DNA from: Couchioplanes caeruleus
Lineage (GTDB): Bacteria; Actinomycetota; Actinomycetes; Mycobacteriales; Micromonosporaceae
Reading direction: 5' to 3'
Length of the DNA stretch: 64,000 nucleotides
Assembly (NCBI RefSeq): GCF_003751945.1
Contig: NZ_RJKL01000001.1
Span: forward strand, 2,356,001 to 2,420,000
Position numbers and translations under genes: made by a program. The notes beneath the pieces are model-generated. The model saw only the letters and a list, made by a program, of their open reading frames with translations, was not told the origin of the DNA and did not search any database. Below, in pieces: positions 41,774 through 54,429 of the stretch. Position 1 is the first letter of the stretch; each line of letters opens with the position of its first letter.

Positions 41774-42989
41774 ATGGTTCGTTATATCGGGATGGACGTG
41801 CACCGCGAGTTCGCGCAACTGGCCGTCCTTGAGGACGGGCTGGCTCGAGACGAGGGCCGCATCGGTGTGACGCCGGAGGCGTTGCGGGCCTGGGCGGCTG
41901 GGCTCCGCGGATGATCAGATCGCGTTGGAGGCGACCGGTAACAGCGACGCGATCGCGAACCTGCTGATCCCTCTCGTGGCGCGGGTGGTGGTGTCGAATC
42001 CGTCCAAGACCCGGGTGATCGCAGAGGCGAAGGTCAAGACCGACAAGGTCGACGCGCGGATCCTGGCCCAACTGCTCGCGGCGGACTTCCTGCCGCCGGT
42101 GTGGCTGCCCGACGAACGGATCCGCCGGCTGCGCCGGCAGGTGACCCGCCGGGCGCATCTGGTGCGTCAGCGCACCCGGGTCAAGAACCAGGTCCACGCC
42201 ATCCTGGCTCGCAATCTCGCGCCGACGCCGCCGGTGTCCGACCTGTTCGGCAAGACCGGCCGGCACTGGCTGTCCCGGCAGGTGTTACCCGCCGATGAGC
42301 GTGCCAGTGTGCAGGCGCTGCTACGGCAGATGGACTTCCACGGCGACGAGCTTGCCATCGTCGACCGGGAACTCGCCGTCGAGGCGTTCGCCGACCCGAT
42401 GGTGACCCGGTTGATGACCATACCCGGCATCGACGCAATCGCCGCGATCTCCATCGTGGCCGCGGTCGGCGACTTTACCCGCTTCACCGACGCCGACAAG
42501 CTGGTCGCCTATGTCGGGCTGAACCCGAAGGTCCGCCAGTCCGGCAACTCCGCCCCGGTGCATGGCCGGATCAGCAAGGCCGGCCGGGCCCACGTCCGTG
42601 GCGTCCTCGTCGAGGCGGCCTGGTCGGCCAGCCACGCCCCGGGACCGCTGCGCGCCTTCTACCAGCGGGTCAAGGCACGCCGCGGCTTCCAAACCGCGAT
42701 CGTCGCGACCGCCCGTAAGATGACCACCCTCGCCTGGCATCTCGTCACCAAGGAGCAAAATTACGCCTTCGCCCGGCCCGGCCTGACCGCGCACAAGCGA
42801 CGCAAACTCGAACTGACCGCCGGGGCACCGTCACGGCGCGGGAACTTCCGCATCCCGGGTGCGGCCTACAACGACAAACAGCGACGCGCCGCCGAAACCG
42901 CAGTGGCCGAGCAGGCCGAGCACGCCTACGAAGTCTTCGTCGCGCACTGGCAACCACACAATCCCGCGAAAACCCGTGCTGCGACTTGA
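41774..42989 (+). pseudogene. IS110-family transposase, frameshifted
   Basis: ATG 41774 (GAAGGGAG upstream) gives MVRYIGMDVHREFAQLAVLE with the first catalytic Asp, but stops at 41914. The remainder (from 41925) is in another frame and includes LEATGNSDAIA with the second acidic residue, VDARILAQLL, and the C-terminal transposase-20 domain with the catalytic-type Ser in VRQSGNSAPVHGRISKAGRA. Loss of one CG pair near 41905 (expected CGCGCGGATGAT, seen CGCGGATGAT) would explain the shift. The element is probably inactive in cis unless this is a sequencing error. Confidence 0.85.
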
Positions 42990-43496: not shown

Positions 43497-44003
43497 TCAA
43501 CGGACTGACCGGGCAAGCTCGTTCGCCGTCCCACCCGGGTCAACGATGTCGAGCACGTCAAGTGCAGCTTCGTAGCAGGCCTCATCGTCGAGCGCCTCCC
43601 GAACAATTAGCCAGAGCGATTCCCGAACACGAGCGGCGCACCGTTCGAGGAGCGCACCGTTTCCACGTTCGACCTCGTCACTGGCTGGAGCGCCGGACAG
43701 GATTAGATACATCAACTCAAGCACTGCAATCCGAACCCAGCGCGGCCGGGGGTCGACCAGCGAGGCCGCCAAGACGCCGACCGCCGGCTCAGCCGCGCTG
43801 TAAAGATCGGCTTGAGGCACAATCTTGTCTTCGAGAGAGTCTTCGGCGGTATCAATCCTTTCCCGATCCGACTTAAGAAGCGACATTAGAGCTTGCCCCA
43901 CATCCGCCGCCGAAACGCCTTCGAGCTTCCGGTAACTGCCCCAATCAGTCGCCTCGATAAGTCGCTCAGCAAGACCGGCGGATCCAGCATTTACCTCAGT
44001 CAA
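43497..44003 (-). CDS. Putative immunity protein for the RHS toxin (HEAT-like)
   Basis: 168 residues from TTG 44003. GGAGGT sits about 7 nt upstream inside the end of the rhs gene, and the start overlaps the rhs stop by 8 nt. The protein is acidic and mainly helical (AERLIEATDWGSYRKLEG, SAAEPAVGVLAASLVDPRPR, WVRIAVLELMYLILSGAP, CYEAALDVLDIVDPGG), with HEAT-like helix pairs. A small, divergent, lower-GC (about 58%) gene directly after a polymorphic toxin C-terminus is the expected place for the immunity gene. No named family is recognised; the assignment rests on position and fold impression. Confidence 0.6.
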   Translation of the reverse strand: MTEVNAGSAGLAERLIEATDWGSYRKLEGVSAADVGQALMSLLKSDRERIDTAEDSLEDKIVPQADLYSAAEPAVGVLAASLVDPRPRWVRIAVLELMYLILSGAPASDEVERGNGALLERCAARVRESLWLIVREALDDEACYEAALDVLDIVDPGGTANELARSVR

Positions 44004-47000
44004 CCCAACTACCTCCGGATTCGCCACGCGTCCTGGGATCGAACAGCTCACGGGGGTACCTTCCTTGGCACCTCGGGCACACAGTATGCGGGCGCCATTC
44101 TAGCTGGCCCGTGTCTTTATTCCTTCGCCAAGCGTAGGGCTGGGTCATCTTCGCGCCGGGCATGCGGTCCTGGATGATGTCCTCGGCATGATTTCTGTGA
44201 CCACGGGGGCCATTACCTGCGCCCATCACATTACCGTTCTTATCATAGCCTCCGACATAGACGGGCGAGTCACGGTTCGGCTTGCCATTAGGCTTTCGTC
44301 CAGCCTCATCACGGGCCCGCTCAGCCTCTGCCTTAGGATTCGCCGGTTTTGATTTACCCTTCGGTGATTTAGGCTTGATTTTGGGCTTCACGGGAGGGTT
44401 GCTGGGCCGCATCTTCGGCGGCTTTTTCCCGCCGGACTTCTTTCCGCCAGTCGCCTTCGTGGAGCTCTTGGGTCGGCTCTTGGGCTTGGCTTTGCCGCCT
44501 CCGGACTTAGGTCCTCGGACGACGACCCTTGGAGGCTTGGGCGTTGATCGGCTGGAGGCGCGGGCGCGTCCGAATACTTTCTCGTTGTGCGCGTCTCGGG
44601 ATTCGGTGCGGCTGAACCTTGGGGTGACCGTCTTGCCGGGTTTCTTCTTGACGGTGGAGCCGTGTCCCTTGGCTCCACTGCCTCTGCCACTGCCCTTAAA
44701 GGGGTTCCAGGGCATGCTTATGCGGGGGACTGATCCCATGCCGCCGCCGCCGCCTCCGGCCCACGGGTACACCGCGAGTCCGTCGGGGTCGGTGAAGGTG
44801 ATCGGGTTGTTGTTGGCGTAGGCGTAGCCGTGCAGGGTTTGTGGGTCGCCGAAGTCGGCGAGGGGGTCGACGGAGATGAACCGGCCGGTGCTGGGGTCGT
44901 ATTCGCGGGCGCCGAGGTGGGTCAGGCCGGTGGGGTCGGCGGTGCCGCCGACGAAGGCCTTGCGGTCGGGCCAGATCGGTGCTGGGCCGCGGCTTTCGCC
45001 GAACGGGGTGGTGCGGCGTCGGGTGGAGGTCAGGGTGCCGGCGTCGATGGCGAGTTGTCCGGTGCCGTGGTGGTCGCTGACCATCCAGGTCAGACCGTCG
45101 GTGGTGGTGCGGATGGCGTCGCCGTAGTAGCGGGTGCCGGTGGCTTTGCCGGTGTTGTCGACGCGGATTTCGCTGTGGCCGAGTTCGAGGGTGACTGCGG
45201 TGGGGTCGATGGTGATGAGTCGGGTGCCGCCGGCGTCGTAGGTGTAGTAGTGGGTGCCGCTGGCGGCGGTGGCGACGCTGGTGAGTAGGCCTTCGGCGTC
45301 GAAGGTGAAGGTGTCGGTGCCGGCGGCCGCGGTGCGGGTTTTCAGGTTGCCGCCGGGGTCGTAGGTGTAGTCGGTGGCCGAGCCGCCTCCGCGGGTCTCG
45401 CGGCGGGTCAGGGTGTGCGGTTGCGCGGTTCCGGCGGCGGGGGTGGCGTAGTCGCGGATGGTGTCGCCGGCCGGGCTGTGGCTGGTGTCGGTCTTGCGGT
45501 TGCCGACGAGGTCGTAGGTGAACGACTGCCAGTACGGGTCCGGGCCGCCGACCGCGGCCTGGGTGGGGCTGGTCTGGCAGGTGGCGGCGGTGGTGGTCCA
45601 GGCCTCGGTGAGGCGGCGCAGGTAGTCCTGCTGGAAACACTGCTGGGTGACGGTGGTGTTGCCCGCGCCTTCGTTGACCTCGTTGATCGCGGTGATGTTG
45701 CCGGCGGGGTCGAAGCTGTAGCGCTCGGTGAGTTTCTCGTCGAACGTGTCGGCCGTACCGGCGCGTTCGGTGGAGACCTGGGCCTTGGTGCGGCGCAGGG
45801 TGGAGTCCTCGTAGTCGTCGATGAGGCGTACGCGTTTGCCGCCGGCGCCGAGCAGGCGCTGGGTGACGCCGCCGTGCCAGGCGTAGGTGGCCGACGCCAG
45901 GTAGGTGTCGGTGCCGGACAGGGTGGCGAGGTCACCGGCGTCGGTGTAGGTGGGGGTGACGGTCTCGGTGGGTAGGTCCGCGACGGCCGGATACGTCAGT
46001 GAGGCCGGGGAGCCGTCCGGATGGTAGGTGTAGCCGGTGGTGTAGGTGCCGCTGATACCTCGGTGCCCGTCCGGGATGGTGACGGTGGTTCCGGTCGGGT
46101 CGTACAGGTCGGTGTAGCCGGTCACCGTCTGGGTGTACTGCTTGCCACCGGAGTGGCGTACGGCGGAGGTGAGCTCGCCCTTGGCGAGGGTGTCGTAGGT
46201 CCACGCGGCCCGCAGGGTGCCGGTCGCGTGCGCGTCGCGCAGCTCGGTCACGCGGCCAAGCTGGTCGTACTTGCGCCACAGCTTCTTACCGCGGCCATCG
46301 GTGGTGGCGGTCAGCTGGTCTGCCTCGTCGTACTCGTTGACCAGGGTGCCGGCGTCGGGATCGGTGCCGCCGGTCAACCGGCCGCGCAGATCGTAGCTGC
46401 GGGTCCATTTATTGCCGGCCGGGTCGGTGATGGAGGTCAGATGGCCAAGCCGGTCGTAGCCGTACTTCGTCTCATCCACGGCGTCTTGCGCGCCCGGTCC
46501 GCGGTGTTGTTGCAGCCGGGTGACCTCACCCGTGACGTCAAGGTGCGTCGTGGTCTTGATGCCACCCGCCGGCGGGGTCACGGTGACCCGATCACCGCGG
46601 TATGCCGTGGTGGTCGCCCACTTCTTGGCATTGCGCGACCACAGCGCGGTTTCGGTCGGCCGCTCCAGCGCGTCGTAGGTGGACCGTTCCTGGAGGTCCA
46701 CTGCGGTGTCGTCGAACGTGACGAGCGTGCCGGCAGGCCCGGACGCGTTGTTGTAGAACGCGGTCTCGGCGCTGATCAGCCCGCGCGCGTCGTAGCGGAC
46801 GTCGGCGATCACCCGTTTGCCGTCGGGGGCGGTGCTCTGCTGCTGGCGGGGTCGTTCAAGCCCGTCGTAGATTTCGTAGGAGCTGATCTGGTTGCCGTTC
46901 GGGCCGAGCTGACGGGTGCGGGTGTGGCTGGGCGCGGTGGTGCCGTTGACCGCGTAGTCGTACTGGGTATGCGGAGTCTGGCCGGTGGTGCGCCCGGGCA

Positions 47001-50000
47001 GCCACAGCTTGGTCAGCCGGCCCAGTGGGTCGTAGGCGGCGGTGGTGACCTTGGCATTCTCGTCTGTGTCGGTCAGCGTCTCGCCGCGGATGTCGAACGT
47101 CGACGTGGTGGTGTGCCCGGCGGCGTTCCTCTCCGTTTCCGCGGTCACCGGACCGCCGAGGGCCGGCGTGTAGGTCGTCGTGCTGGTCCGGCCGAGGGCG
47201 TCGCTCTCGGTCAGGACACGGCCATGGGCGTCGTAGGTGGCGGTGCCGGCGGTGACCCAGTTGGCCGTGGTGTCGGTGTACGACGCGAGATCGTCGGTGC
47301 GGGTGTCCAGGCCCCGCGTCGGCGCCGCGCCGAGGGTGGTGGAGCCGTCGTAGTAGGTGCGCTCACCGGACAGCACGTCGGCGGGACCGGGGGTGTCGGC
47401 GCAGTTGGTGGCCAGTTCCTCGGCCGGGTAGTCGATCAGCCACGCCGCAGGGTTGGTGTTACGCGCATACGTTTTGGTGGTGCACACATCGTCATCGGAC
47501 GATCCGATTAATCCCCGGTCGATCTCCTTGGTGACCTGGCCGTAGGTCGGGTCGTAGACGAACTCCACCTCGCGTTCGCGCCAGGTGCCCGACGCGGGCA
47601 GGAATTCGAAGGTCTCCTCCTTGGCGACCTCGCCGAAGTATGAGCGGGTGGTGGTCGGCTGCGCGTGCGCGGCGGCTTCGACGCGCTGGCCGGTCTGGTT
47701 CTCCCACGGGTGGAAGCGGTACTTGTACAGCGGCGTGGTTGCGTCGGCGTCGTAGTCGACCTGCTCGAGCAGGTGACCGGTCCGGTAGCCGAAGTCCGTC
47801 CATTCGGCACCGTGCGAGTCGGTGATCGACACAGCCCGGGCGGTCTCACCAGCATCGGTACGATCGCCGTGCATACCCCGGAAGTACCGGTACTCCGACC
47901 TCGTCCGGGTGCCACCAGCCACGCCGGTCGTGACCGAAACGTTCGAGTAACCCCGCCAGTCCGACCACGTCCGCAACGGCAGCGACAACCCCCACTTGTC
48001 ACCGTTGTTGTGATGCCACAACACACTCGTCGACGAGCCGGCGGTGCTGTACCCGTAGCTGTGCACCACGTCGTGTGACCCGCCGACCAGGTCGCGTTCG
48101 GTCACGCTGATCACGCGGTACTTGTTCCACCACGACCAGCCCGCCGCCGAATTCGGCGGGGCGTAGTACTGCGGGAAACACCGCATGGAGTTGTTGTCCG
48201 GGTTCGGCAGCGACGTGGGCGAGCAGTTCGAGTCGCCATAGGCGATCTGCAGCTCCCCGTCGGTCTCCGAGGTGATCCGGGTGAGCCGGTACTTGTTCGA
48301 CGTGGGTACGCCCGCAGAGGTGTTGTAGTCGGTGCGGTTCGGCTTTCGTGTGCCCCCGAAGTCGACCTTCGGCAGCGCCTGCGTACCGCCGGTCCGGCCG
48401 GTGCGGGTGATCGACGCCAGCCACAACGACGGATCGGTGTTGTCATTCGTGGCCGGGAAGCTGTGCGTCAACGCCCACTCGTCCACCGGCGTATACGCGC
48501 CTGCGACCAGCACCGACGTGGTGACCTTCGCCAGGCGCTTGGCGGTCCAGAACGACGGCGCCGGGTTGTTGGTACACGGCGCCGCCGTGCACTGCAGATC
48601 CCAGGGAGTGTCCGGCCAGTTCGCCGCCACCGGCGTGGTGCCGCTCCAACAGGTGGCCAGGCACCGGTCGCCGGCGGTGAAGTCGACCTTCATCGGCGCC
48701 TTCGCACTGGTCTCCGTGCCGGCTGCCGTACTCGATGCGCGCGAGCCAGCCGCCGCGGTCGTAGGCCGCCACGGTCGCCGTGCCCGCGAGCTTCGTGCGG
48801 CTGCTTTCCTTCTGGTACCAGTACGACATCGAGTTGCCGTCCGGGTCCACGACATAGTCCAGGTTCCAGCGCCACGCCATCGCGCACCAGGAGCCGGCGA
48901 ACCCGCCGGTCTTGTAACACGGCTCGCCCGTCCGGTTCGCGAACACCGGCACACCGAACACCGACGAGGTGACCGGCTGACCCTCCTGCCAGCCCGGCAG
49001 CCGGCTCTTACCGAACCAGTACTGGGTGCCGTCCGGCGTGGTCAGCTTCCAGTGCTCATTGCTGTAGAGCCCGGTGCCGGTGCCGCCGGTGACCAACTCC
49101 AGGTACGAGCCGTCATCCTCGGCCAGACGCCACTTGCCCGTCGCATCGTCGAGCACCAGCTCCGTCGACTGACCCCGCCACGACAGCACCGCATTCTGAT
49201 CCCGATAACACAGATCACCGGTGGCGTTGGTGTACTGCGCGGTGGTCGCCCCGGTCACATCGTCACGACACGCCCGGTACTGACGCTCGATGAACCCCGG
49301 CTCAAAATTCCAACCCTCACCGACCCAGGACGGCTGCGCGTTGTTCGCGTTGGTACGCCCATCCACCGCACCAGAGTTGTAACCCAGCGCCAGCTCCGGC
49401 TCCAATTCACCCGGAGCCGGCGGCACCTGCAACGGATATGACCAGGAGAAGTCACCGGACTGCTTGCCGGCTGACCACGATGCCGCCTCGGTCAAGTCGG
49501 ACCGGGCGAACGTGCCGGTGTCCACGCTCGCCGCCATTGCGGTCATGGCCAGCACCGTGGCCTGGCCGCTGTCAGCCGGCGCCAGCTTGGCATCGGCCAC
49601 GATGGTCGATTTCTCGACATCGTTCTTCGCCGGCAGTGGCGTCGCCGTCTGGCACTGCTGTCTCTCCGGCGTTTCCACCGCACAGGCCGGCAGTTGCACC
49701 AGTTGCGCGCGCCGCGCCCAGTCACCACCGAACGCCTGCCGCAACGACGAATAGTCGATCTCCACCGACGTCGGTGCGCTGACCGGTGCCTCATCGGTGC
49801 GGTTCAAGCGCAGCATCAGCCCGGTCACCCCGGCAGCTTCAGCCTGCTTACGGCTCAGTACCTCGGAGCTCACCCGCCCGACCGGCTCGGCGGCACTGGC
49901 ACGCGCGGCGGGCTCACCGCGGCGCGAGCCGGCGCCGAGGAAGGACGCCCGACACGCACCGGCTGCCCCGGGACAGCGACCCGGCCGGAACCCGCGATCG

Positions 50001-50274
50001 CCACCTCGGCCTTGCCGGGAGACGGCCAGCTCACCGCAGGCGCCTTCCACAGATCCACCTGGGACTCCGACACCTGCCCGTCACGCGTCTTGGCCTTACC
50101 GACCGCCACGGAACGGTTCCGGTCGACATCCGCAGACGGCTTGGGCTCCGCCTGGGCCTGGCCTGCAAACGGCAACGAACCCGCCAGAACCACCAACGCC
50201 ACCGCGATGACAGCCCGCCGAATCCAACGCCACAGAACCGAAAACACGCGCGACGAACCGACCTCAGCGTCCAT
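43996..50274 (-). pseudogene. Secreted RHS/YD-repeat polymorphic toxin, interrupted by two frameshifts
   Basis: Start ATG 50274 (GGGGGA upstream); about 2090 codons in all. Sec signal peptide (RRAVIAVALVVLAGSLPFAG, cleavage near AQA). The first frame ends at 49870; a second frame carries SAAEPVGRVSSEVLSRKQAE through LARIEYGSRHG at ~48720; a third (same as the first) carries GTETSAKAPMKVDF to the stop. The indels therefore fall at ~49890-49940 and ~48715-48730 and cancel. The middle is the WXG/VgrG-free wall-type RHS region with many YD repeats (YDxxGxL), ending in the core YDPSTGRFISVDPLADFG and YAYANNNPITFTDPDGL. A Lys/Pro linker and a deaminase-like tip follow. The immunity candidate is coupled to the stop. 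Confidence 0.85.
43999..44290 (-). other. Deaminase-like toxin tip of the RHS protein
   Basis: Last ~97 residues: DSPVYVGGYDKNGNVMGAGN, then GHRNHAEDIIQDRMPGA with the HAE zinc/proton-shuttle motif (His codon 44188-44190), and 37 residues later VCPRCQGRYPRELF with a Cys-x-x-Cys pair. HAE plus CxxC is the catalytic signature of the cytidine-deaminase superfamily, used by many polymorphic toxins against DNA or RNA. GC here is about 55%, and the sequence is not one of the deaminase families I can name. Confidence 0.6.
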
Positions 50275-51579: not shown

Positions 51580-51780
51580 TCAAGGGGTCTGGTCGTCCGA
51601 GTCCGGCCGATGCTGCTTGATCCTCGCCTCAACGTCATCTCGTCGCCACACCTTGCCCTGGATCAACTCGTCGTAGGGTGCCGGCCAGTCCGGCCGGTGC
51701 GTGAGCTGGTAGACGCGCTGACGGCTGATCTCTCCGAGCCGTTGGCGGATCTCGGCCGCACCCATCAGCTTCCTAGGCAT
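51580..51780 (-). CDS. Small HTH DNA-binding protein (AlpA/excisionase-like)
   Basis: 66 residues from ATG 51780. MGAAEIRQRLGEISRQRVYQ then GKVWRRDDVEARIKQHR is the compact winged-helix pattern of HTH_17/AlpA-type proteins, which bind att or promoter DNA. A TAAGGT box lies 6 nt before the ATG. Divergent from the RepSA pseudogene remnant, whose missing N-terminus would have lain here. No other feature is seen in 51348-51579. Confidence 0.75.
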   Translation of the reverse strand: MPRKLMGAAEIRQRLGEISRQRVYQLTHRPDWPAPYDELIQGKVWRRDDVEARIKQHRPDSDDQTP

Positions 51781-51786
51781 ACGACC

Positions 51787-51792
51787 ACCTTA
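51787..51792 (-). promoter_or_regulatory. -10 box, leaderless promoter of the small HTH gene
   Basis: TAAGGT on the minus strand, 6 nt before the ATG at 51780. Confidence 0.42.
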
Positions 51793-51808
51793 CAGGCGAC
51801 CACGGGAG

Positions 51809-52939
51809 TGGCATTTCACCCAGTCGGTGTGGAACCTGCGCGCGGCGGAGCTGTGGCGGCGCACCAGCATCACCGCCAACCGCTACATCCGCCGGGTCGC
51901 CCACGAGCGGGGTATCCGGACCGGCCTGTCGTGACCTACGACAAGTCCGGCAAGGCCCGGACCCGGTGGGTCAGCCCGGTCCGGCTGGAGTTCAGCAAGG
52001 CCGCTGAGATGCAGCGCCGCGCCGCGATTCACCTGCACTGCGTGGTCCGCCTTGATGGCAATGACCCTGACCAGCCGGACACCATCGTCGCGCCGCCGCC
52101 CGGACTGGACGCACACGACCTGGTCGCCGCTGTCGATCATGCGGTCGCGACCGTCGCCTTCACCACCGCGCCGCACCCGGCCAACCCGGCGGGGTGGACG
52201 ATCAGTTGGGGCTCCCAGGTCCTCACCAAGGTAATCACCGATGGCGCCGACGGCGAGGTGACCCACAAGCAGGTCGTCGCCTACCTCGCGAAGTACGCCA
52301 CCAAGTCGACCGAGGTCACCGGGCACGCCTCGAACCGGCTCACCGATGACACCGTCGGCCTGTACGCCGACCCGGACGGCACCCACCCGCAACGGCTCAT
52401 CGACGCCTGCTGGCGGCTCGGCAGCTTCCGCACCGATCCCACTCCGCCTGGTCCGCTCGCACCCAAGCGCCGCGCTGAACCCGCTCCGGCTGAGCCCTTC
52501 GGTGTCCTGCGCACCGACCCGGACTGCGGGGGCTGTACCCGCTACCGGACCTGCCCCACCTGCGCCGCTGAGCAAGTCGCCGCCGCAGACATGGCTCGCC
52601 GCGCCCCCGGCCGGGCCGCCGGCCAGTCCGTACCTGAAGCTGCGCCGGTGGGCGCACATGCTCGGCTTCGGCGGCCACTTCCTCACCAAGTCCCGCCGCT
52701 ACAGCGTCACCTTCGCCATACTGCGCGACGCACGCGTCGTGTTCCGCCGCGCCCAGACCGGCGGCCCCGAACGGGCTGAGCCGGTCGCCGAGCCCACCAC
52801 GCTGGTCGTCAACTTCCTGCAGTTCGTCGGCGCCGGCTGGCAGACACCGGCCGACGCCATGCTCGCCAACACCTCCGCCGCCATGGCCCGAGAACACGCC
52901 GAAACCGCCAGACAGCACCTTCAGACCCTGGCCGCGTGA
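51809..52939 (+). pseudogene. RepSA-like replication initiator remnant of an integrative element
   Basis: N-terminally truncated and twice frameshifted. Frame 1 (from 51809): WHFTQSVWNLRAAELWRRTS to GIRTGLS at 51937. A missing G then shifts to VSPVRLEFSKAAEMQRRAAI with HLHCVVRLDG, VAYLAKYATKSTEVTGH and CDGGCTRYRTCP-like cysteines (seen as CGGCTRYRTCPTC). Near 52610 it shifts back to LRRWAHMLGFGGHFLTKSRR and ends HLQTLAA. This is the pSAM2 RepSA family found in actinomycete integrative elements, lying directly upstream of xis and int as usual. Non-functional as sequenced. Confidence 0.85.
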
Positions 52940-53023
52940 ACGGCCGACAACCGTCAAGCCCGCCTTGACGCCACGCTGCGAACTGAGGCGGTCGGAACTC
53001 TCTCGGATAGGAGCAACAGACTG

Positions 53024-53224
53024 ATGGCGACAGCGTCGGCGTCAGCGGCGGCAGTCGACAGGCTGTGGACGATCGATGACGTCTCAGCCTTCCTTCGGGT
53101 ACCGATTGCGACGCTCTATCAGTGGCGGCACCATCGCGTCGGCCCACCGGCATTCAAGGTCGGTCGCCACCTGCGATACGACCCGACGGCCGTGCGCGCA
53201 TGGCTCGTCTCCCAGGAGGCGTGA
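53024..53224 (+). CDS. xis: Excisionase (HTH_17)
   Basis: 66 residues from ATG 53024, with AGGAGC 9 nt before. LWTIDDVSAFLRVPIATLYQ, then GPPAFKVGRHLRYDPTAVRA, is the standard winged-helix excisionase of actinobacterial integrative elements. It ends 3 nt before the integrase start. Intact. Confidence 0.92.
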   Translation: MATASASAAAVDRLWTIDDVSAFLRVPIATLYQWRHHRVGPPAFKVGRHLRYDPTAVRAWLVSQEA

Positions 53225-53227
53225 GCG

Positions 53228-54429
53228 GTGCCCGTCGACGACACGTGGTACCTGACGAAGCGCGGCCCGGATGGGGACGGTTGCCATCCCGCAAACACGG
53301 GCGGGGCAAACGCTGGCGCGTCCGTTGGGTCGACAACCATGGCAGCGCCCGTGAGCGGCACTTCGAGCGCAAGGCGGACGCCGACCGGTACGACGCCAAC
53401 GTGCGCGCCGACCTCAGCCGTGGCCAGTACATCGATGACAGGGCCGGGCGGGTCACGGTTGCCGACCTCGCCGAACGGTGGCGTGCCGACCAGTTGCACA
53501 TCCCGAGCACGGCCATCCGGGTCGAGCACGCCATCCGGTTGCACATCGTCCCCGGCATCGGGCAGATGCAGGTCGGGCAAGTACGCCCCAGCAAGGTTCA
53601 GGCGTGGGTGAAGGACCGTGCCCAGGTGCTGGCACCGACCACTCTGCGGGTGGTGTACGGCTACCTGAACGCCATCTTCGCCTCGGCGGTACGCGATCGG
53701 CTCATCGCCAGCTCGCCCTGCGTCGACATCCGCCTGCCGGGCATCGACCGCGACAAGCGGGTGATCCCGACGCCGGAGCAGGTGCACCGCTTGGCCGAGC
53801 TGATGCCGCCCCGTCTCGCGGCGACCGTCTACGTCGCGGCCGGCTGCGGTCTGCGGCTCGGCGAGGTGCTCGGGCTGGAGGTCGGCGACATCGACTTCGA
53901 CGCTGCCGAACTGACGGTGCGCCAGCAGTTGAAGATGCACAAGGGTCGCCCGCCGTACCTCGGCCGACCGAAGACGAAGACGAGCACCCGCAATGTCGAG
54001 CTGCCGGACGTGGTGGCGACTGCGCTGCGCGAGCACCTGGCGGAGGGCTGTGCGCCCGTGGAGGTGGACGACGACACCGACCCCCGACGACCGAACCGGC
54101 GTCCCGCCGAGCTCGTCTTCCGCGCGGCCAGCGGCGAGCCGGTGAACGCCTCGACCTTCTCCCGTACCTGGACCCCGGTCCGGACGAAGGTCGGTCTGCC
54201 GCCACGCTGGGGCTTCCACGGCCTGCGGCACTACTACGCGACGCTGCTGATCCACGCCGGGGCGAGCGTCAAGACGGTGCAGCTCGCGCTCGGTCACTCG
54301 ACTCCGACGATCACACTCAACGAGTACGTGCACGAGTGGCCGGATGTGCTCGACCGCACCCGCGCCCTGGTCGACGGGGCGCTCGGGACACGAGAAACGG
54401 CGGCCACGTCGGCTGGGAGCCGAGCATGA
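53228..54429 (+). CDS. int: Tyrosine site-specific integrase, N-terminus frameshifted
   Basis: GTG 53228 gives the typical head VPVDDTWYLTKRGPDGDG, but after ~53280 the rest is in another frame (LPSRKHGRGKRWRVRWVDNH and onward, ~380 aa). One missing T in GGTTGCC would join them; alternatively translation may begin at an internal TTG near 53279. The catalytic domain is complete: Arg in GCGLRLGEVLGLE, HGLRHYYATLL (HxxR), LGHSTPTI and the nucleophile Tyr in LNEYVHEWPD. The SAM-like arm-binding domain (TVADLAERWRADQ) is present. No tRNA or clear att repeat was found next to it. Confidence 0.85.

Follow-up and report, generated by a model that had tools for sequence, protein, structure and literature searches.

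The window analysed here is a stretch of 64,000 nucleotides from Couchioplanes caeruleus (assembly GCF_003751945.1, contig NZ_RJKL01000001.1, positions 2,356,001 to 2,420,000), and the subject is the C-terminal tip of an RHS protein encoded on its reverse strand, together with the small gene that overlaps the toxin stop codon. The locus is best explained as a polymorphic RHS toxin-immunity module, the tip of which is probably a compact zinc-dependent deaminase that is not modelled in Pfam or NCBIfam, and a new, minimal toxin family of the deaminase superfamily is probable. The genes, their overlap, the conserved motifs and the recurrence of the pair were observed directly. Toxin deaminases are the source of DNA base editors and illustrate how bacteria bring mutations into their rivals.

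The features of an RHS polymorphic toxin were present, namely matches to PF05593, TIGR03696 and TIGR01643, a variable tip and an adjoining immunity gene. The downstream piece of the RHS gene (43996..48954, minus strand), identified by these family matches and by alignment to an intact relative, encodes YD repeats, the RHS core, a Lys/Pro-rich linker and the tip, and its C-terminus reads ...GHRNHAEDIIQDRM...RPHTVCPRCQGRYPRELF...GGSWVD*. The tip extends from AERARDEAG to the stop (43996..44325, minus strand), about 109 residues and the stop codon. The two motifs that an earlier note on this DNA had pointed out at the end of the RHS protein could be read directly in this frame, the first Cys of VCPRC following the His of NHAED by 37 residues. 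Judged from motif conservation, HAED (44179..44190, minus strand) would provide the first zinc ligand (His) and the catalytic Glu, and CPRC (44068..44079, minus strand) the second and third zinc ligands.

The sequence [HC][AG]E, with CxxC 33-41 residues later, was found in 29 of 30 compiled tips, the exception (L077) having CxxxC, and the first motif position was His in 8 tips and Cys in 21. The compiled tips were gathered by similarity, so the constancy of the motif is a measure of conservation and not an independent test.

Predicted fold and sequence-profile tests of the tip

The AlphaFold2 model of the tip had a predicted local distance difference test score (pLDDT) of 81 and a predicted template modelling score (pTM) of 0.72. 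It places two strands, the HxE helix, a strand and the CxxC helix in the order of the deaminase core, and deaminases rank best among the structural matches listed, the closest being blasticidin S deaminase (1wn6) and cytidine deaminase (4f3w), with moderate scores. The earlier note's proposal of a base- or nucleotide-modifying toxin with a deaminase-like fold was partly supported, the fold as a prediction. DddA and SsdA were not among the best 50 structural matches listed, from which their exclusion does not follow. The best match in a viral structure search with the tip was an uncharacterised protein (E 0.036).

The model contains no strand of at least three residues beyond residue 85. The usual last strands of the deaminase fold (a hairpin, or a parallel strand with helix 4) seem to be missing from the family, because merely 15-28 residues follow CxxC in 27 of 29 tips (23 in the window tip; 38 in L012 and 68 in L014). 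In P0002, P0036 and P0037 the tip comes after a Hint-like ending, VLVHN, which sets the toxin domain at about 105-110 residues.

Neither the tip nor the neighbouring protein matched any Pfam or NCBIfam model up to E 1, or any PADLOC model. When 25 tips were scanned singly, no Pfam deaminase model was matched up to E 10, including PF14431 (YwqJ-like) and PF14428 (DddA-like); a scan of 18 tips likewise hit no Pfam deaminase model, and DYW, Pput_2613, BURPS668_1122 and MafB19 were assessed via the Pfam scans. One of 18 tips weakly matched the NCBIfam cytidine deaminase model NF004064 (E 0.093), and a search with the tip-family profile gave RibD at E 0.78 with 18 tips and no RibD with 25. Alignment by hhalign of the tip family with YwqJ, DddA-like and XOO_2897 members and with TadA-like proteins gave probabilities of at most about 1% in all cases, controls included, and so does not discriminate. 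Pfam, NCBIfam and profile searches gave no significant link of the tip family to any known deaminase family. The earlier note's suggestion that the tip may belong to a new family stood as far as models were matched, the sce3516-like family being compared by its description. Partial PF14431 matches in long frames proved on inspection to be ordinary longer YwqJ-type domains and not members of the tip family.

Members of the family and pairing with the immunity gene

The immunity candidate (43497..44003, minus strand) has 168 residues, a TTG start and a predicted all-alpha, ARM/HEAT-like solenoid structure. The profile search of this neighbour found no family in Pfam or NCBIfam; it has relatives, since a protein search with it returned 33 proteins (including itself) among 1081 candidates, and a search with the window tip returned 2 among 12. 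A profile search added 8 proteins from 391 candidates. Whole-genome tip searches found the tip in 12 of 300 genomes of the family, 4 of 396 of the phylum and 6 of 394 of the class, each tally counting the window's own genome.

Scanning genomes with the immunity alignment yielded six loci, three of which have an intact upstream tip (L003, L005 from Prauserella and L007 from Cellulomonas). At L004 a close tip relative has an in-frame stop shortly past CxxC and the immunity gene is intact, and no upstream tip was seen at L006 and L008.

When the immunity profile, A1, was applied to the downstream frames of 13 loci found by the tip, the adjacent frame matched in 12 (14.4-90.9 bits). L014 reached no more than 5.7 bits downstream; among 2037 reversed or shuffled sequences, the top score was 7.9. 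Three of five further tip-found loci had an immunity relative (E 5e-38, 5e-37 and 3e-13); L077 and L079 had none adjacent, and both tips appear degenerate, the one lacking CxxC and the other having an in-frame stop. In total, an immunity relative adjoins the tip in 15 of 18 tip-found loci. L024, which has no tip and whose matched frame contains stops, was left out before this count, and L009, L010, L072, L073 and L078 were left out as repeats of other loci. The tip query had two rows (L005 and L007) from immunity-found loci, and the loci were chosen by the tip alone. At the level of sequence, the pairing of tip and immunity gene is strong. Toxin and immunity distances were correlated over 20 pairs (r 0.78, 0 of 20000 permutations as high), and among 183 pairs below 60% toxin identity r was 0.46, a value for which no permutation was run. 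The earlier note's HEAT-like immunity protein has an ARM/HEAT-like model and a recurring partner, and it would protect the producer.

The A1 search of the window's whole genome listed the window's gene alone. This genome carries a second tip (L021, G000:C1:4779938-4780243), with CAE in place of HAE, which ends a 3527-residue frame; next to it comes a 171-residue immunity-like frame of its own, which scored 40 bits with A1 when tested directly. At L018:1820-3250 and L019:1760-3187, a WD40-propeller protein carries the immunity domain at its C-terminal end.

A plasmid search with the window tip gave no match and one with a relative's tip gave one, and six plasmid records carry immunity relatives, in most cases with no tip to be seen. 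Those of L043 (a Deinococcus taeanensis plasmid) and L042 (a Streptomyces plasmid) have no annotated toxin directly upstream and are possibly orphan immunity genes. The L043 gene sits between two IS6 transposases, near a Tdi1-type immunity gene. In viral contigs, 12 stretches fit the pattern, none of which codes for a relative.

Layout and surroundings of the locus

The TTG of the immunity gene lies at 44003-44001 and overlaps the toxin stop by 8 nucleotides, and its ribosome-binding site, GGAGG (44012..44016, minus strand), is read directly within the toxin gene, 8 nucleotides ahead of the TTG. Both points had been made in the earlier note and are confirmed by the coordinates. In the Couchioplanes relative, GTG stands at the position of the TTG and the GGAGG is identical; for this reason the start at 44003 was preferred over a longer mechanical frame from 44051. 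The Gly-Gly of the toxin C-terminus (GGSWVD) is encoded by GGAGGT in both the window and the Couchioplanes relative, and the conserved GGxW ending of close relatives may be partly a product of the gene overlap rather than of toxin function. In L007 and L016 the arrangement is different.

The guanine plus cytosine content is 58.6-59.5% in the tip and 60.4% in the immunity gene, whereas the RHS core has 68.6% and the window as a whole 71.3%. The segment after the core is indeed lower, as had been noted, at about 59% rather than about 55%, and the drop over tip and immunity gene fits, as expected, an exchanged tip cassette.

The intact relative, P0001 (Couchioplanes azureus, 2096 residues), has a tip 94% identical to that of the window and aligns to the window as three pieces in two frames. 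Its residues 1-117 correspond to 50274-49924, 114-524 to 49936-48704 and 520-2096 to 48723-43999. On the minus strand, a third piece carrying the N-terminus lies at about 49924-50274, and an upstream piece (48443..50050) is in another frame than the downstream piece. The YD repeats and RHS core of the earlier note were confirmed; that the protein is not one open frame in the window had been missed there. The interruption may be a genuine lesion or an error in the sequence. The tip and the immunity gene are each intact as frames in the window; since the RHS gene is broken, this copy may not give a delivered toxin.

Beside the RHS gene, at 51724-54426, are a RepSA-type (pSAM2) replication initiator and a tyrosine integrase, which suggests an integrative element; no tRNA gene was found in the window. 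An IS110-family transposase (41925-42986) lies just beyond the immunity gene. Elsewhere in the genome there is a DddA-like (PF14428) domain (L047, G000:C1:6158123-6158365).

Alternative readings and known systems

The tip could be a zinc-ribbon-like or HNH-type nuclease, in which CxxC would make up one half of a structural zinc site and the HAE would be a coincidence. In the profile ranking, the top places went to LIM, zinc-finger and zinc-ribbon chains (E 0.15-0.9), and among 18 tips there was one weak match to Zn_ribbon_TFIIB (E 0.023) and one to the FmdE treble clef (E 0.018). However, the family has a single invariant CxxC pair, the A and E of HAE do not vary either, His and Cys replace each other at the first position as a zinc ligand would, and the fold search ranks deaminases. 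Pfam scans of the 25 tips at E up to 10 supported no HNH or other nuclease family, and a nuclease appears quite improbable. Alternatively, the tip may be a very divergent branch of a described toxin-deaminase family (YwqJ-like, sce3516-like or other) and not new, which is unlikely but a serious prospect. According to the 2012 census (PMC3482391), those families share [HCD]xE and CxxC and often occur in RHS proteins, and the sce3516-like family usually has HAE; the best hhalign register with YwqJ also aligned both motifs, at 0.85% probability. Against this stand the absence of Pfam deaminase matches described above, the long insertions between the motifs and the further sequence after them in YwqJ sequences from relatives, and the partner immunity, which is HEAT-like here and Imm1-6, 10, 18, SUKH or ankyrin proteins for the deaminase toxins of the census.

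The substrate bears on a further alternative, that the tip acts on nucleotides or nucleosides in free form, as cytidine deaminase and blasticidin S deaminase do, and not on DNA or RNA. The closest structures listed are small-molecule enzymes of this kind, most relatives have CAE, and one is the tip with the weak cytidine deaminase match; this alternative is considered rather unlikely, though a live rival. As a first guess DNA is reasonable, since mutation of DNA is what PMC7901873 describes for the toxin deaminases tested there.

If the tip is a deaminase, zinc would be held by Cys79, Cys82 and His42 (the last being Cys in most relatives), in the numbering of a 105-residue piece, and Glu44 would act as the proton shuttle. 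Inside the target cell the enzyme would hydrolyse an amino group off a base, with cytosine or a cytidine nucleotide as the most likely substrate. Delivery and release of the tip would fall to the RHS shell. Translation of the immunity gene would be coupled to that of the toxin gene, which contains its start codon and ribosome-binding site, and the solenoid product may bind the tip at the active site and shield the producer. A more tentative proposal, somewhat short of even confidence, is that of a new actinomycete RHS tip family with a truncated core of about 90-100 residues that lacks the terminal strands, and with a Cys/His switch at the first zinc ligand, always or nearly always accompanied by a dedicated ARM/HEAT-like inhibitor. 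The His/Cys exchange at the proposed zinc site within one family is a natural experiment. At about 105 residues the tip is shorter than the mini-Sdds (130-160 residues, PMC10847098) and would probe how little fold catalysis needs; activity on DNA would place it among the smallest base-editing domains known. No description of the tip family was found in the open-access literature, and the family is not claimed to be unpublished.

The nearest structural matches among those listed, blasticidin S and cytidine deaminases, are free-standing housekeeping or resistance enzymes, whereas the tip is shorter, is C-terminal in an RHS protein and has an immunity gene. YwqJ-like toxin deaminases, with three PF14431 matches in the window's genome and matches in 27 of 60 relatives, share [HC]AE and CxxC with the tips, but no tip matches PF14431, the YwqJ insertion between the motifs is longer and the immunity described is Imm6 or SUKH (PMC3482391). 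DddA (SCP1.201-like, PF14428) and SsdA (DYW-like) are likewise interbacterial deaminase toxins; no tip matches PF14428, and in SsdA, too, the immunity protein is all-alpha, lying over the active site (PMC7901873). The sce3516-like proteins resemble the tip in usually having HAE and in being actinobacterial RHS toxins, some with Hint, but belong to the C-terminal-hairpin division with a SUKH partner (PMC3482391), whereas the tip seems to lack the hairpin and its HEAT-like neighbour matches no Pfam family, SUKH included; the two are set apart by description, not sequence. Imm-HEAT proteins are all-alpha, HEAT-type immunity proteins too, but are paired in the census with Ntox34 and Tox-REase-7 and not with deaminases (PMC3482391), and a dedicated solenoid inhibitor would be a toxin-immunity pairing absent from its deaminase list.
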